Assembly: GCF_008801935.1 (NCBI RefSeq)
Contig: NZ_VZOT01000002.1
Span: 248,001-312,000, forward strand
Source of the DNA: Comamonas kerstersii
GTDB lineage: Bacteria; Pseudomonadota; Gammaproteobacteria; Burkholderiales; Burkholderiaceae_C
Length of the DNA stretch: 64,000 nt
Direction of reading: 5' to 3'
Of this stretch, positions 6,599-64,000 are shown one piece after another. Under the pieces are notes generated by a model. It did not search any database. It was given only the letters and a program-made list of their open reading frames with translations, and was not told where the DNA came from. Within the stretch, counting starts at the first letter, position 1. Every line of letters starts with the position of its first letter. The translations under genes were made by a program, and so were the position numbers.

Positions 6599-7450
6599 CA
6601 TCTGAGGCAATGGTGCAAAACCATGGTTCAGCGGCCCATGGCCCTGCCCTGTATGTACCTGCGCACCCGAGGCAATTGCCCCCACGATATAGGTGCGCGC
6701 ACTCTCCACCGCAGGCTGCAGTTCAAACCCTAGCGCCATGTGCGCCGCAATCGCAGACGAGAGCGTGCAGCCCGTGCCGTGGCCGTTGTGCGTATGAATT
6801 CGCTGGCTGCCCAGTTCCTTGCGCAAGCCGTCCTTGCCTGCCAGCAGGTCTACCACCCATTCACCAGGCAGATGGCCGCCCTTGAGCAGCACATGCGGCG
6901 CGCCCATATTCAGCAACGCCTGGGCGGCAGCTTCCATGTCTGAGACATCTTCAATCTTGCGTCCAATCAGCCAGCCTGCTTCGTCCAGGTTGGGCGTGAT
7001 GACGGTCGCCAGCGGAAACAGCTCGCGCACCAGCACTTCTGCGGTTTCATCATGGATGAGCTTGTCACCACTGGTGGCGACCATCACTGGGTCGAGCACC
7101 ACCTTGGTGATGCCATGGCGGCGAATGGCATCGGCCACGACATGCACAATCTCTGGCGCGTGCAGCATGCCGATCTTGATGGCGTCTGCACCAATATCCT
7201 GCATCACGGCATCGATCTGCGCCTGCAGCATCTCGGGGGGAATACCGTGGATGGCGCGCACACCTTGCGTGTTCTGTGCGGTAATGGCGGTAATCGCCGT
7301 CATGCCATAGCAGCCCAGTGCGGCAAAAGTCTTGAGGTCAGCCTGGATACCTGCGCCACCGCCGCTGTCCGAGCCAGCGATGGAGAGCACACGCGCATAG
7401 CGCGGCAGGGAGGAAGTGGCACTGCCCGAAGGCATCTGTTGCATCGTCAT
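6584..7450 (-). CDS. thiD: hydroxymethylpyrimidine/phosphomethylpyrimidine kinase ThiD
   Basis: 288 residues, ribokinase fold. ThiD phosphorylates HMP twice to give HMP-PP for thiamin. The N-terminal LSIAGSDSGGGAGIQADLKTF is the family signature; DPVMVATSGDKL and the later HNGHGTGCTLSSAIAAH (catalytic Asp region and anion hole, although the usual GTGC-T/S-x-S-A-A form is complete) follow. Length is slightly above the usual 265-270 because of a short N-terminal extension. The gene is divergent from the thiO operon and has no TPP riboswitch of its own in the 90 nt upstream. Its stop codon lies in a dispersed repeat. Confidence 0.95.
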   Translation of the reverse strand: MTMQQMPSGSATSSLPRYARVLSIAGSDSGGGAGIQADLKTFAALGCYGMTAITAITAQNTQGVRAIHGIPPEMLQAQIDAVMQDIGADAIKIGMLHAPEIVHVVADAIRRHGITKVVLDPVMVATSGDKLIHDETAEVLVRELFPLATVITPNLDEAGWLIGRKIEDVSDMEAAAQALLNMGAPHVLLKGGHLPGEWVVDLLAGKDGLRKELGSQRIHTHNGHGTGCTLSSAIAAHMALGFELQPAVESARTYIVGAIASGAQVHTGQGHGPLNHGFAPLPQMIFRG

Positions 7451-55767: not shown

Positions 55768-56181
55768 ATGAATTCTGCAAGCAACAATTTCTCCGGCAGC
55801 CCCGTCGTTGCTGCCTCTCGCTGGCTGGCCGTAGGCAGCCTGCTGGGCCTGATCATTCTGTGCGTCGCATGGGAGCTGTGGCTGGCACCGCTGCGCCCCG
55901 GCGGCTCCTGGCTGGTGCTCAAGGCCCTGCCGCTGTGTATTCCGCTGGTGGGCCTGCTCAAGCGCCGCATGTATACCTACCGCTGGGTCAGCCTGCTGAT
56001 CTGGCTGTACTTCACCGAAGGCGTGGTCCGTGCCTGGAGTGACCGGGCACCGGGCAACTACCTTGCCATGCTGGAAATCTTTTTCTGCCTGCTGCTGTTT
56101 GTGGCCTGTGTACTGCATGTGCGTATCCGCCTGCAGACCGCCAAGGCTCAGCCCGCAGCACCAGTCACACCAGAACATTGA
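55768..56181 (+). CDS. DUF2069 membrane protein
   Basis: 137 residues with four hydrophobic segments (about 20-37, 42-60, 70-83, 95-114). WELWLAPLRPGGSWLVLKALPLCIPLVGLLKRRMYTYRWVSLLIWLYFTEGVVRAWSD matches the compact DUF2069 family in proteobacteria. No enzymatic motif. It starts 21 nt from the divergent yihY, so the two share a promoter region inside each other's 5' ends, and lies 14 nt before the FAD oxidase gene, probably in one unit. Confidence 0.85.
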   Translation: MNSASNNFSGSPVVAASRWLAVGSLLGLIILCVAWELWLAPLRPGGSWLVLKALPLCIPLVGLLKRRMYTYRWVSLLIWLYFTEGVVRAWSDRAPGNYLAMLEIFFCLLLFVACVLHVRIRLQTAKAQPAAPVTPEH

Positions 56182-56195
56182 GAAAGCAAAGAGAC

Positions 56196-57620
56196 ATGAA
56201 ACAAGCCGCACTTCTGGCACAACTGCGCGACATCGTCGGCGCAGCCCATGTGCTGACCGATGGTGACCTCAGCGCCTATGAGCAGGACTGGCGCAAGCGT
56301 GTGCATGGCAAGGCGCTTGCCGTGGTGCGCCCAGGCAGCACACAGGAAGTGGCTGCCGTGGTCAAAGCCTGTGCTGCCGCGCATGTGAGCATCGTTCCCC
56401 AGGGGGGCAATACCGGGCTTTCTGTAGGCTCTACGCCCGACACCAGCGGCGAGCAGATTGTGCTGAACCTGCAGCGCATGCATGCCGTGCGCCAGCTCGA
56501 TGCAGACAACCTCACCATCACCGTCGAAGCGGGCATGGTGCTGCAGACCCTGCAGGAAACAGCCGCACAGGCCGGTTTTCTGTTTCCGCTCTCTCTCGCT
56601 GCCGAAGGCAGCTGCACCATTGGCGGCAATCTGGGCACCAACGCTGGCGGCACCCAGGTGCTGCGCTACGGCAATACGCGCGAGCTGTGCCTGGGCCTCG
56701 AGGTAGTCACCCCTCAGGGCGAAATCTGGGATGGGCTTTCCGGCCTGCGCAAGGACAACACGGGCTACGACCTGCGCGACCTGTTTATCGGCAGCGAAGG
56801 CACGCTGGGCATCATCACCGCCGCCACCATGAAGCTGTTCCCGCAACCTGCGGCCCAGCTGACTGCCTTTGCCGCCGTGCCCAGCATGGAAGCTGCCGTG
56901 CGCCTGCTGGGCCTGGCCCACAGGCATCTGGCGGCCGGGCTGACAGGTTTTGAGGTGATGGGGAAATTTGCGCTGTCTCTCGTCGTCAAGCACATGCCCC
57001 AGCTGCGTGTGCCCTTTGCCGACATGGCCGATGCGCCCTACTGCGTGCTGCTGGAAAACTCCGACAGCGAATCCGAAACCCATGCCCGAGCGCGCTTTGA
57101 GCATCTGCTGGAGCTGGCGCTGGAAGATGGCTGCGTGCTCGATGCTGTGGTGGCCGAGAACATGACCCAGGCGCATGAGCTGTGGCATATCCGCGAGAGC
57201 ATTCCGCTGGCACAGGCTGAGGAAGGCTTGAACATCAAGCACGACATTTCCATCCAGGCCTCGCGCATCCCTGCCTTTGTCGCGCACACGGACGCGCTGC
57301 TGCAGCGTGCCATTCCTGGCGTGCGCCTCGTGAACTTTGGACACCTGGGCGACGGCAATCTGCACTACAACGTGCAGGTGCCGGAAGGGCAGGACGGCAA
57401 AGTCTTTCTGCAAGAGAAAGAAGACATGGTCAACACACTGGTCTATGACGCCGTGGCGCAGTTTGGCGGCTCTTTCTCCGCCGAACATGGCGTAGGCGCG
57501 CTCAAGGCTGACAAGCTGGTGCACTACAAGTCACCCGTGGCGCTGCAGATGATGCGCGCCATCAAGCAGGCACTGGACCCGCAGGGCATCATGAACCCAG
57601 GCTGCATCCTGCAGCGCTGA
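56196..57620 (+). CDS. FAD-linked D-2-hydroxyacid dehydrogenase/oxidase
   Basis: 474 residues. FAD_binding_4 domain (about 35-215) with VPQGGNTGLSVGSTPD and EGSCTIGGNLGTNAGGTQVLRYGNTRELCLGLEVV, then the FAD-oxidase C domain with VNFGHLGDGNLHYNV (metal/substrate His residues) and FSAEHGVGALK. This is the GlcD/D-2-hydroxyglutarate dehydrogenase/D-lactate dehydrogenase family; which acid is oxidised is not decidable. ATG at 56196. A terminator follows at 57645. Confidence 0.9.
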   Translation: MKQAALLAQLRDIVGAAHVLTDGDLSAYEQDWRKRVHGKALAVVRPGSTQEVAAVVKACAAAHVSIVPQGGNTGLSVGSTPDTSGEQIVLNLQRMHAVRQLDADNLTITVEAGMVLQTLQETAAQAGFLFPLSLAAEGSCTIGGNLGTNAGGTQVLRYGNTRELCLGLEVVTPQGEIWDGLSGLRKDNTGYDLRDLFIGSEGTLGIITAATMKLFPQPAAQLTAFAAVPSMEAAVRLLGLAHRHLAAGLTGFEVMGKFALSLVVKHMPQLRVPFADMADAPYCVLLENSDSESETHARARFEHLLELALEDGCVLDAVVAENMTQAHELWHIRESIPLAQAEEGLNIKHDISIQASRIPAFVAHTDALLQRAIPGVRLVNFGHLGDGNLHYNVQVPEGQDGKVFLQEKEDMVNTLVYDAVAQFGGSFSAEHGVGALKADKLVHYKSPVALQMMRAIKQALDPQGIMNPGCILQR

Positions 57621-60160: not shown

Positions 60161-61237
60161 ATGAGCCTGATCCAGCCCCTGCCCCCCGGCCCGCTTGACA
60201 TCGTCGGAGACATCCACGGCGAGCTGCATGCATTGCTGGATCTGCTGCGCCACCTGGGCTATGACGCGGATGGCCGCCACCCACAGTCGCGCACCCTGGT
60301 GTTTGTGGGCGACTTTGTAGACCGCGGCCCGGACAGCCCCGGCGTGGTCGATGTGGTGCAGCGCCTGGTGGAAGCAGGGCATGCCCGCGCCATCGCGGGC
60401 AACCATGAAATCAACCTGCTGCGCCATGATGCCAAGGACGGCGCAGGCTGGTTTTTTGATGCCCGGCTGGACAGCGATCTGCGCAAATACCGCCAGTTCG
60501 CCCGCGCCACCACCACGCTGCAGCGTGCACGCATTGAAACTTTTCTGAACAGCCTGCCCCTGGGGCTGGAGCGCGAGGATCTGCGCGTCATCCACGCTGC
60601 ATGGCATGCCCCCGACGTCGCCAAGGCCCGCAGCATGCCGCTGGGCGGTGCGCGCGCCGCCTACGACCACTGGGAAACGCAGGCCGCGCAAATCGCTGTG
60701 CAGCGCCGCATTGCCGAGCGCATGGCCGAGGAAAAAAACCGCTGGCCCCACAGCCTGGAAGATGGCGAGCGCCACCCACCATTCCTGCAGGCACACTGCG
60801 ACAACGAACTTAACAAGGCCACGGTCAACCCGCTCAAGGTACTGACCTGTGGCCTGGAACGCCAGACCCATGCGCCATTTTTTGCGGGCAACAAATGGCG
60901 CTTTGTCGAACGCATGGCCTGGTGGGAGCAATACGCCGAGCCCACGCCCGTCGTCATGGGCCACTACTGGCGCTCCACCCTGCCGCACCAGAGCACGCAG
61001 GAGGGCTTGTTCAGCGACATCAGCCCCTATGCCTGGCACGGCCAACTGGGCAATGTGTTCTGCGTGGACTACTCCGTCGGTGCACGCGCGCAGGCGCGTA
61101 CCTTTGACCAGCCACATGCCCACATGAAGCTGGCAGCCCTGCGCTGGCCCGAACGTGCGCTGGTCTTTGATGATGGCAGCCAGCACGCCACAACAGGCTT
61201 TCTGCAGCCCGAGAAAAACACAGCACACTCTGCCTGA
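60161..61237 (+). CDS. metallophosphoesterase (PPP-like)
   Basis: 358 residues, calcineurin-like phosphoesterase. DIVGDIHGELHALLDLL (D-x-H), LVFVGDFVDRGPDSPGVVD (GD-x-x-DRG) and AIAGNHEINLL (GNHE) are the metal-binding motifs; the later VVMGHYWRS provides the distal His. The pattern is nearest to PPP phosphatases and diadenosine-tetraphosphatase-like enzymes, with an additional C-terminal ~180 residues. Target unknown. ATG at 60161, 120 nt after folA; no terminator is visible between them. Confidence 0.88.
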   Translation: MSLIQPLPPGPLDIVGDIHGELHALLDLLRHLGYDADGRHPQSRTLVFVGDFVDRGPDSPGVVDVVQRLVEAGHARAIAGNHEINLLRHDAKDGAGWFFDARLDSDLRKYRQFARATTTLQRARIETFLNSLPLGLEREDLRVIHAAWHAPDVAKARSMPLGGARAAYDHWETQAAQIAVQRRIAERMAEEKNRWPHSLEDGERHPPFLQAHCDNELNKATVNPLKVLTCGLERQTHAPFFAGNKWRFVERMAWWEQYAEPTPVVMGHYWRSTLPHQSTQEGLFSDISPYAWHGQLGNVFCVDYSVGARAQARTFDQPHAHMKLAALRWPERALVFDDGSQHATTGFLQPEKNTAHSA

Positions 61238-61392: not shown

Positions 61393-62913
61393 ATGCCCAC
61401 GACCATCAGGTCGCATATTTTTAAGAAACGCCCCATTTCTCCATCCAATACTGTGCAAGATACATTCAACGCCCTGGAGCCGCTGTATGTGGATCTCGAT
61501 GGCACATTGACCCCCGTAGATACACTGCACGAAGCATTGACGGAAGTACTCCGCAGCCAGCCGCTCGCACTGCCCCAGGCACTGCGCAGCCTGCTCCAGG
61601 GCAAATCTGCGTTCAAGGCAACGACTGCCCAGCTCGCTTCCCTGGATGCCAGCACGCTGCCCTATAACCAGCATCTGCTGGAATTACTGCGTGCGGAAAA
61701 GCAAAAAGGCAGAAAGCTGATTCTGGCCAGCGCTGCAGATATTCGTATCGTGCGCGCCGTGGCGGAGTATCTGCAGATATTTGATGACATCATCGCGACC
61801 AACCAGCACGATGCCACCAACTTAAGTGGCGCCAACAAACAGGCTGCGATTGCAGCGCATGCTGCTGCACTCGGTTTTACGGAATATGCCTATGCAGGCA
61901 ACAGCCATGACGATCTGGCTGTGTGGGAAAAAGCAAGTCTGGCTATTGCAGTGGATACCCCAGCCAGCGTGCTGAAAAAACTCAGGCAGCAGCACAGCAA
62001 CATCATTGAAATGGTTGCAGCGAGGCAGCCATTGAAAGTATTTCTGAAGTCCATTCGTATCAATAACTGGACCAAGAATGCATTGATTTTTCTTCCCCTG
62101 CTGGCGGCCCATTGCCTGGAAGTACCTGCCTGGACCCAGGCACTGCTGGCATTTCTGGCCTTTGGCCTGTGCGCATCCGGCACGTACCTGATCAATGACC
62201 TGCTGGACATTCCCAACGACCGCAGTCACCCGATCAAATCCAAGCGCCCCCTGGCTTCTGGCCGCATGCCTGTTCTGCAGGGCTGCGCACTGTCCGCTCT
62301 CTTGCTGGCAGCAGCGGCCGTGACAGCCCTCTCTCTGTCGCCTGCCTTCTTTCTGACCCTGCTGATCTATACGGCGCTGACACTCTCCTACTCCGTCAAG
62401 CTCAAGAAAATCGCTATTCTGGATATTCTTGTGCTGGCCTTTCTCTACACCATCCGCATTATTGCTGGCGGGGTTGCATCGAATATTCAAATTTCCAAAT
62501 GGCTGCTGGCAATTTCTATTTTTGTCTTTATCAGCCTGGCACTGGCCAAACGCTGTGCAGAAATCACTCGCATCAAAAATGCAGGTCTGGCGAAAATTCA
62601 AGGCAGAGGCTACTCCATCGATGACCTTGAAACCGTCAGAAGCATGGGCATTGCCAGCGGCTTCATGAGTGCGCTGGTACTGGCGCTCTACATAGAAAGT
62701 CCTACCAGTTTTATTAACTACAATTTGCCCGAACTTCTGTGGATCACTCCAGCGATATTTTTGGCATGGATCATGAGAATCTGGATCAAAACCGGAAGAA
62801 ACGAGCTCACTGGTGAAGATCCCCTGCAGTTTTCCCTGAAAGACAAACCCAGCTGGATCTGCCTTTCCCTGATTTTCATATTCGCAAGCATTGCCATGGT
62901 CGGAGAAGCATGA
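61393..62913 (+). CDS. HAD phosphatase-UbiA prenyltransferase fusion
   Basis: 506 residues in two domains. Residues about 30-215 are a HAD-like phosphatase: YVDLDGTLTPVD (nucleophile Asp), LILASAADIRIVRAVAEYL, and YAYAGNSHDDLAVWEKA. Residues about 225-500 are a UbiA-type membrane prenyltransferase with eight or so helices: IRINNWTKNALIF, and the metal motif YLINDLLDIPNDRSHPIKSKRPLASG (near 267-275). This combination resembles decaprenyl-phosphate phosphoribosyltransferase (UbiA, Rv3806c) joined to a phosphatase; a role in moving a sugar phosphate onto a polyprenyl carrier is inferred. The stop overlaps the next start by ATGA. The start at 61393 has no strong RBS. Confidence 0.85.
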   Translation: MPTTIRSHIFKKRPISPSNTVQDTFNALEPLYVDLDGTLTPVDTLHEALTEVLRSQPLALPQALRSLLQGKSAFKATTAQLASLDASTLPYNQHLLELLRAEKQKGRKLILASAADIRIVRAVAEYLQIFDDIIATNQHDATNLSGANKQAAIAAHAAALGFTEYAYAGNSHDDLAVWEKASLAIAVDTPASVLKKLRQQHSNIIEMVAARQPLKVFLKSIRINNWTKNALIFLPLLAAHCLEVPAWTQALLAFLAFGLCASGTYLINDLLDIPNDRSHPIKSKRPLASGRMPVLQGCALSALLLAAAAVTALSLSPAFFLTLLIYTALTLSYSVKLKKIAILDILVLAFLYTIRIIAGGVASNIQISKWLLAISIFVFISLALAKRCAEITRIKNAGLAKIQGRGYSIDDLETVRSMGIASGFMSALVLALYIESPTSFINYNLPELLWITPAIFLAWIMRIWIKTGRNELTGEDPLQFSLKDKPSWICLSLIFIFASIAMVGEA

Positions 62914-63281
62914 ATTTTTTTACCTACGTCATCGCGCTGGTATGCATTGCCATGTCATCACTCGCCCAGATTGCCATGAAATATGGCATGAGCGCAGGCC
63001 GTGCAGACAGCAGCGACCTCAAATCCATCTATTTACAGGCATTGCTGAACTCTTATGTCTGGCTAGGCATCGGCTTTTATGGCCTGAGCGCAGTCATCTG
63101 GCTGTGGGTACTTTCACGGCTGCCGGTGAGCGTTGCCTACCCCATGGTCAGCCTGGGTTTTATTCTGACCATGCTGATCGGCAAGTTTTTCCTGCATGAA
63201 AACGTGAGCTGGCAGGCCGCTCTAGGTGGCGCCTTGATTCTTATTGGCGTCACACTGATTGCAAGCACCCATCGGATTTAA
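62910..63281 (+). CDS. small four-helix transporter, SMR/EamA-like
   Basis: 123 residues, four predicted membrane helices (about 2-18, 40-62, 72-91, 98-118). ALVCIAMSSLAQIAMKYGMS and AYPMVSLGFILTMLIGKFFLHENVSW match the small multidrug-resistance/EamA fold and the ArnE/ArnF flippase subunits, in which the conserved LG-x-x-L-T segment and helix 4 carry the signal. With its neighbours a flippase for a polyprenyl-linked sugar is the likeliest role, but drug export cannot be excluded. The start overlaps the UbiA stop by 4 nt and the stop is 1 nt before the glycosyltransferase ATG. Confidence 0.8.
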   Translation: MNFFTYVIALVCIAMSSLAQIAMKYGMSAGRADSSDLKSIYLQALLNSYVWLGIGFYGLSAVIWLWVLSRLPVSVAYPMVSLGFILTMLIGKFFLHENVSWQAALGGALILIGVTLIASTHRI

Positions 63282-63282
63282 T

Positions 63283-64000
63283 ATGAACAGCAATACTTAT
63301 AAAAATCTATTCATAAAAATATTCTGCATCACACTGCTGGTCAAAATATTCCTTGCCTACTTCACGCCCATGACGGGGGATGAGGCATTTTTTTATCAGT
63401 GGGGGGTATTTCCTGCCGCTGGATATTCCGACCACCCTCCCATGGTGGGCTGGCTGATTTTCCTGCTGCGCATGCTGGGTGAGCACCCACTGATTCTGCG
63501 TGCATTCACCGTGCTGCTCACCAGCATCATTGGCCTGGGCATTGTCCTGCTGTGCCAGAAAACCCTGGATCAAAAATACCAGGCACATGCCTGGCTGATT
63601 GGTGCGCTGTATCTGTGCCTGCCATGGTCCTGGCTGTTCTTCATGGTCACCACAGATACCACGCTGGTGTTGTTCATGTTCTGCTCCGGGCTGGTGTACA
63701 TGTTGGCAGACCGACAGGCATCTGACTCCAAGGCGCTGGTACTTTATGCCTTGTGCGGTATCTTGCTGGGCCTGGCCTTCCTGTCCAAGTACTTCTCTGC
63801 ACTGCTTGGATTTGCGTTTGCCATTCACTGCCTGCTTTTCCGACGCAAGCGCCTCTGGGCCCCATTTGTGATTCTGGCCTTCGCCCTGCCCGCCATCTGC
63901 TTCAACCTGTGGTTCAACGCCACACACGGCTGGAGCAACATCATGTTCAATGTGTTTAACCGCAATCAGGACAAGCAATGGTCCATCGGCACGCTCATTG
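63283..64000 (+). CDS. ArnT/GT-C-type membrane glycosyltransferase, N-terminal part
   Basis: 239 residues are visible before the right edge cuts the gene. It begins MNSNTYKNLFIKIF and then LVKIFLAYFTPMTGDEAFFYQWG, the first luminal loop with the catalytic acid of GT39/GT83 (PMT/ArnT) enzymes, followed by AGYSDHPPMVGWLIFLLRML and several membrane helices. Such enzymes take a sugar from a polyprenyl phosphate and transfer it to lipid, protein or glycan in the periplasm. The start lies 1 nt after the SMR stop, so the three genes form an operon. Donor and acceptor are unknown. Confidence 0.85.
   Translation, partial: MNSNTYKNLFIKIFCITLLVKIFLAYFTPMTGDEAFFYQWGVFPAAGYSDHPPMVGWLIFLLRMLGEHPLILRAFTVLLTSIIGLGIVLLCQKTLDQKYQAHAWLIGALYLCLPWSWLFFMVTTDTTLVLFMFCSGLVYMLADRQASDSKALVLYALCGILLGLAFLSKYFSALLGFAFAIHCLLFRRKRLWAPFVILAFALPAICFNLWFNATHGWSNIMFNVFNRNQDKQWSIGTLI

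Follow-up and report, generated by a model that had tools for sequence, protein, structure and literature searches.

What do a HAD phosphatase fused to a UbiA transferase, a small membrane protein and a GT-C glycosyltransferase accomplish together when they are encoded side by side? The question is raised by the right end of a 64,000-nucleotide stretch of the Comamonas kerstersii genome (C2:248001-312000, hereafter the window). We consider it quite probable that the three genes encode a complete three-component system for attaching a pentofuranose, most probably D-ribofuranose, on the outer side of the cytoplasmic membrane. All three genes lie on the forward strand. The HAD-UbiA fusion gene (61393..62913) codes for 506 amino acids, with the HAD domain at about residues 31-205 and the UbiA domain at about 215-503. 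It shares an ATGA overlap at 62910-62913 with the gene for the small membrane protein (62910..63281, 123 amino acids), a predicted flippase of the EmrE/ArnE-ArnF kind. The TAA of the latter gene is followed by a single T and then by the ATG of the GT-C gene at 63283. The window end truncates this gene at 64000. In the genome continuation, numbered as locus L004 (window position equals L004 position plus 58000), the full-length gene ends with a stop at L004 6815 (L004 5283-6815, window-equivalent 64815) and encodes 510 amino acids from the ATG at 63283. The first recognised gene 3′ of the GT-C gene codes for an ion channel on the opposite strand, that is, in convergent orientation, and the operon therefore comprises three genes. 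A terminator-like hairpin is present on the operon strand at L004 6912; the number of hairpins in the region is about equal to that in shuffled sequence (6 versus a mean of 4.3). The three genes thus form a tight operon, and the coordinates and families agree with the original prediction of a three-gene operon with ATGA and 1-nt junctions.

By homology to the system of Citrobacter youngae, we suggest that the pathway would proceed in four steps. Initially, the UbiA domain would move 5-phosphoribose from phosphoribosyl pyrophosphate (PRPP) to undecaprenyl phosphate. The fused HAD domain would then strip the 5-phosphate to give undecaprenyl-phosphate ribofuranose, which could be flipped by the EmrE/ArnE-like small protein. 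Finally the GT-C enzyme with its presumed ArnT fold would pass the ribofuranose to an extracytoplasmic acceptor, either lipopolysaccharide (LPS) or another envelope glycan, or a protein. We infer that undecaprenyl serves as the lipid and that the sugar stays ribose to the end; the class of the acceptor is inferred as well. A polyprenyl-phosphate-pentose pathway had already been proposed for this locus, and it is well supported by the UbiA match, the HAD motifs, the recurrence of the trio and the neighbours of the GT-C gene (33 of 49 genomes).

The HAD-UbiA fusion protein

In Pfam the fusion protein matches UbiA (PF01040, 78 bits) and HAD (PF12710, 44 bits). The NCBIfam model NF006088 spans the whole protein with 554 bits (cut-off 351), so that the fusion belongs to an already catalogued protein family. 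NF006088 is a sister model to the decaprenyl-phosphate phosphoribosyltransferase equivalogs (PRK12324), and these models score 152, 149 and 125 bits on the fusion without reaching their cut-offs of 207, 234 and 474. A literature search on PRK08238 found no paper. In a sequence comparison with solved structures, the mycobacterial phosphoribosyltransferase 8j8j ranks first (E = 3.9e-29), and the two align at the Asn-Asp...Asp...Asp motif. A structure model built with 24 sequences has a mean predicted local distance difference test (pLDDT) value of 91; its closest fold is again 8j8j, with a template modelling (TM) score of 0.85 by target length, and its HAD part resembles phosphoserine phosphatases and other HAD proteins.

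All 20 aligned fusions share, without exception, D34, K149 and D174 in the HAD domain and N268, D269, D272, D276, R387 and E390 in the UbiA domain. Judged by motif and spacing rather than by alignment, the UbiA residues and D34 appear to match N247, D248, D251, D255, R366, E369 and D18 of C. youngae ORF15, each of which has been mutated to alanine (accessible text of PMC11127046). Since the R366A and E369A proteins retained activity according to the same text, the invariance of R387 and E390 tells little on function. From the family scores, the fold and the motifs we predict that the fusion is a polyprenyl-phosphate phosphoribosyltransferase with a fused 5-phosphatase, in line with the earlier proposal of a decaprenylphosphoryl-5-phosphoribose (DPPR) synthase-like UbiA domain and a HAD phosphatase on one chain.

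One could argue that the UbiA domain is instead a quinone, heme-O or other prenyltransferase and that the operon is unrelated to sugars. These enzymes belong to the same superfamily and the Pfam UbiA match is a general one, but we regard this explanation as highly improbable. Heme O synthase (TIGR01473) and 4-hydroxybenzoate octaprenyltransferase (TIGR01474) score only 35 bits (cut-off 210) and 24 bits (cut-off 275) on the fusion, against 152 bits for DPPR synthase and 554 bits for the fusion family, and the nearest fold is 8j8j. Moreover, with a profile of the fusion-type UbiA domain the two other UbiA proteins of the genome reach 22 and 34 bits, compared to 126-190 bits for stand-alone DPPR-synthase-like proteins. 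By family scores and fold, the domain therefore does not group with the quinone and heme-O enzymes, a grouping which would have spoken against the original prediction. A tree of UbiA domains was also tried for this comparison; it was uninformative, as two outgroup rows had a branch length of 10, and the family scores were used in its place.

Relatives of the fusion were collected by a scan of species genomes, which yielded at least 549 confirmed proteins. Counted above the family cut-off, the fusion occurs in 41 of 399 genomes from the order and in 48 of 398 from the phylum; within the genus only 2 of 53 genomes have it. Matching plasmid records number 102, all with less than 60% identity. An unannotated phage record of 6.6 kb from human faeces (MT837543.1, 4910-5746) encodes a protein whose match to the fusion is confined to the UbiA part, with 28% identity.

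The gene trio, its small protein and its transferase

The best 80 fusion loci were kept for the analysis of neighbourhoods. The fusion, the small protein and the GT-C enzyme occur in the same order in seven of them (L091-L096 and L098), namely in four Hydrogenophaga genomes, in Herminiimonas sp. KBW02 and in two metagenome-assembled genomes, one of the Comamonadaceae and one of the Burkholderiaceae. The arrangement is therefore more than chance. Among further genomes, L230 has the full trio and L231 has the fusion with the GT-C gene. In the UbiA-domain tree the window and nine loci fall into one set of ten rows (Shimodaira-Hasegawa-like approximate likelihood ratio test, 99), and nine of the ten have the small protein. 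This tree is of a quick kind without bootstrap; 108 rows entered it, and L237 had no UbiA match.

The small protein matches EamA (PF00892) with 30.3 bits, just above the cut-off of 28.2. When a profile made from 12 of its relatives is run against the PDB, EmrE chains come up at E = 0.005-0.05. We therefore have a protein which by sequence is flippase-like and would belong to the EmrE/ArnE family, and flipping is its likely role. This agrees with the earlier assignment to the ArnE/F kind, which finds support above the cut-off in EamA and below the cut-offs in ArnF and ArnE.

The sole Pfam match of the full GT-C protein at E = 0.1 is PMT_2 (PF13231, 50 bits). The curated ArnT model gives 13.8 bits on the part within the window (cut-off 567), and the GT-C profile finds no match among PDB sequences at E = 0.1. 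For structure we turned to the homologue at L091 (Hydrogenophaga palleronii), which is 59% identical to the window part and 50% identical over the whole length. Its model (mean pLDDT 78) has ArnT (5f15) as the best Foldseek match (E = 3.9e-7). In a second structural comparison Pmt4 (Z = 25.1 over 332 residues) and ArnT (Z = 24.5 over 429 residues) tie, and the mycobacterial arabinosyltransferases are weaker (Z = 11.7 to 16.6). The model thus assigns the GT-C fold, as expected from the ArnT-like enzyme named in the original prediction together with the PMT_2 match; the fold gives no reading of the acceptor.

The acceptor could be of several kinds. Compatible with the proposed pathway, the target might not be a surface polysaccharide but lipid A or a protein such as a pilin, an alternative to which we give somewhat less than an even chance. 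Two enzymes which tie in the structural comparison would suit it, since Pmt4 is a protein O-mannosyltransferase and ArnT acts on lipid A, but the common GT-C fold does not give the acceptor. In Pseudomonas aeruginosa, TfpW puts D-arabinofuranose on pilins (accessible text of PMC11841053). By eye we recognised no O-antigen locus in the listed open reading frame (ORF) flanks of six of the seven trio loci (all but L094), which leaves room for a protein or lipid A. The same visual inspection, made with no family search, showed no pilus genes beside the trio either, nor any glycan or pilus locus that recurs among the six. Upstream of the Herminiimonas trio there are sequences resembling kds and lpt genes by eye; we draw no conclusion from them.

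At a profile threshold of E = 1e-30, 49 of the 399 genomes from the order carry the GT-C family, and the surroundings of all 49 were taken (for G111 and G316, which have split matches, one of two pieces each). Within about 9 kb of the GT-C gene there is a DPPR-synthase-like UbiA gene in 31 of the 49 genomes and a DprE1-like gene in 10; one or the other is found in 33. Of the 31 with a UbiA gene, 20 have it as a stand-alone gene adjoining the GT-C gene, with no DprE1 or small flippase detected nearby and no HAD domain above threshold (L239, L241, L242, L244-L248, L253, L254, L256, L257, L260-L262, L265, L266, L271, L273 and L276). We estimate, without computing it, that such a UbiA gene occurs about once per millions of bases, which would put the proximity far beyond chance. 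The adjacency to stand-alone UbiA genes ties the GT-C family to polyprenyl-phosphate pentose independently of the fusion.

Several points weigh against the proposed pathway. In 16 of the 49 genomes neither a UbiA nor a DprE1 gene is near the GT-C gene, and several of these cases are on short contigs or at contig ends. L231 belongs to the trio clade and lacks the small protein. The small protein stays below the curated cut-offs for ArnF (57 bits, cut-off 99) and ArnE (50 bits, cut-off 92), and the full GT-C protein has no NCBIfam match at E = 0.01. The likeness of the GT-C enzyme to the C. youngae transferase GT136 was judged by description, and the trio proteins are known from sequence and models. 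An epimerase of another type may also be encoded elsewhere in the genome.

Ribose or arabinose

In the mycobacterial pathway the lipid-linked ribose is epimerised by DprE1/E2, and the original prediction held that epimerase genes of this type may lie beyond position 64000. This part of the prediction did not hold. The operon ends after the GT-C gene, and no DprE1 or DprE2 gene is found among the ORFs of the 14 kb past the window end. A search of the genome for DprE1 gives at best 60 bits with the family model (cut-off 500); no search was aimed at DprE2 or at ORF13-type epimerases, and DprE2 was left aside because short-chain dehydrogenases are too numerous to distinguish. When the DprE1-like protein of the same-genus locus L028 was used as query, the best match in the genome had 31 bits over 145 residues. 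As DprE1/E2 are missing downstream and DprE1-like proteins were not found in the genome, D-ribofuranose is probably kept as the sugar.

We therefore think it unlikely that the lipid-linked ribose is turned into arabinofuranose or xylofuranose by enzymes encoded elsewhere, in the way of the mycobacterial DprE1/E2. What speaks for such a conversion is the company kept by related genes: 10 of the 49 genomes have a DprE1-like gene close to the GT-C gene, and DprE1 is frequent at fusion loci (40 of 72 counted), including one, L028, from the same genus. This is countered by the genome searches, whose best values of 60 and 31 bits compare to 367 bits for the L028 protein, which itself falls under the curated cut-off of 500. 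In addition, dprE1 or dprE2 genes are found in the flanks of none of the seven trio loci. Ribofuranose thus remains the likelier final sugar of the trio.

We also considered whether DprE1 and the small flippase exclude each other. Among 72 fusion loci (84 minus 12 with less than 2.5 kb downstream), DprE1 stands without the small protein in 38 and the small protein without DprE1 in 19; both are present in 2, and 13 lack the two (Fisher p = 5e-7). A tree-aware test leaves only three pairs, and relatedness explains much of the Fisher result; we do not uphold a mutual exclusion.

FAD oxidases with weak partial matches to DprE1, including one at window positions 56304-56867 (43 bits), were read as ordinary FAD-linked oxidases. 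The latter match lies in the ORF 56178-57620 and might wrongly be taken for the epimerase that is missing. Within the genus, L029, L030 and L032 (genomes G008, G031 and G052) have a stand-alone UbiA gene together with GtrA-like, DprE1-like and DprE2-like genes; this gene set looks like a separate arabinofuranose system.

Known systems and the genomic site

The closest described counterpart is the C. youngae O1/O2 system (Kelly et al. 2024, PMC11127046), to whose accessible text the following statements refer. The HAD-UbiA fusion ORF15 makes farnesyl-phosphate ribofuranose from PRPP, and the GT-C enzyme ORF12 (GT136) uses the donor of ORF15 in vitro and is required in vivo. ORF14, a four-helix EmrE/ArnE-like protein, is the proposed flippase. 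The paper labels ORF14 as MATE, yet its four helices and its similarity to EmrE/ArnE fit the small class similar to small multidrug resistance (SMR) proteins to which the trio protein belongs. Three-component systems are called widespread, with homologues of DprE1/E2 marking arabinose and homologues of ORF13 marking xylose. In both ORF15 and our fusion, a DPPR-synthase-like UbiA domain carries a HAD (PRP) domain at its N-terminal end. Both systems have an EmrE/ArnE-like flippase candidate beside the fusion, the trio protein being matched by family only, as well as a GT-C enzyme with ArnT as the nearest solved relative, and in both ribofuranose needs no epimerase. They differ in that the C. youngae genes belong to an O-antigen locus, whereas the trio stands alone between housekeeping genes, and in the C-terminal carbohydrate-binding domain of GT136, with the reservation that the two GT-C enzymes were compared by description only. 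The original prediction called such systems only sparsely described in Gram-negative bacteria; with the fusion and the three-component pathway characterised in C. youngae this is outdated.

Other known systems are more distant. The mycobacterial decaprenyl-phosphate arabinose pathway (Rv3806c, Rv3807c, DprE1/E2, Rv3789) likewise has a PRPP-using UbiA enzyme, an SMR-like proposed flippase and GT-C transferases. Its phosphatase is, however, a separate protein of another family and DprE1/E2 carry out the epimerisation to arabinose (accessible text of PMC11127046), whereas in the trio the phosphatase is fused and no DprE1 was found in the genome. With ArnE/ArnF and ArnT, which serve lipid A modification, the trio shares the fold of the GT-C model (5f15) and the family of the small protein, but its GT-C enzyme is far under the ArnT cut-off and its donor synthase is of the UbiA type. 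TfpW of P. aeruginosa is also a GT-C enzyme using a polyprenyl-phosphate pentofuranose, for the synthesis of which a DPPR-synthase homologue has been proposed (accessible text of PMC11127046 and PMC11841053); it differs by a separate phosphatase, arabinose as sugar and pilin as acceptor, and is likened to the trio by description only.

Most likely, then, the trio is a new example of the type of pathway worked out in 2024 and not a new kind of system. What goes beyond the accessible text of PMC11127046 is the GT-C family of the trio, its siting away from O-antigen genes and the fact that DprE1 accompanies it in some genomes but not in others. We tentatively propose, as an idea more venturesome than the pathway itself, that the third gene represents a Burkholderiales family of pentofuranosyltransferases apart from GT136 and ArnT, which would draw on a donor carrying ribofuranose in the trio and on one carrying arabinofuranose where DprE1/E2 genes occur, would act on an envelope acceptor other than O-antigen, and would spread with the trio as a stand-alone module between housekeeping genes. 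The trio would be compact and self-contained, able both to make a ribofuranose donor and to use it away from O-antigen loci; homologues exist in Hydrogenophaga and Herminiimonas. As the GT-C family occurs with and without DprE1-like genes, it is a testable question whether one transferase serves for both ribose and arabinose donors. Genes annotated only as 'UbiA family prenyltransferase' and 'PMT_2' could be read jointly as a sugar-addition system.

The trio was probably imported. Its upstream neighbour, a calcineurin-like phosphoesterase by family search (60161-61237), is present in 52 of 53 genomes of the genus, and the surroundings of this gene in eight relatives contain no trio (0 of 8). 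Using our own naming of the flanking genes, L203, L204 and L205 keep the order phosphoesterase ... xthA-MFS (major facilitator superfamily) of the window's genome and L208 keeps xthA; no xthA was seen in the stretch of the remaining four. In L205 the gap between the phosphoesterase and xthA is only about 580 bp. The intergenic element which follows the phosphoesterase in L205 and L203 is the one which follows the trio in the window's genome (L004, about 7000-7120). The other fusion of the genus, in G017, is accompanied by DprE1/E2, has a different place and falls into a different part of the UbiA tree. We read the trio of the window and the G017 fusion as separate horizontal acquisitions; no mobile element was found and none was searched for. 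Low G+C content is not relied on as a sign of transfer, since sliding values of 49-56% in the operon compare to 53-56% in a portion of the sequence to its left.

The stretch downstream of the phosphoesterase is variable in length and content (L203 3503-6213, L204 3088-4209, L208 3415-8438), and in L208 it holds ORFs of about 35% G+C. This site may be a spot which often takes up new DNA.

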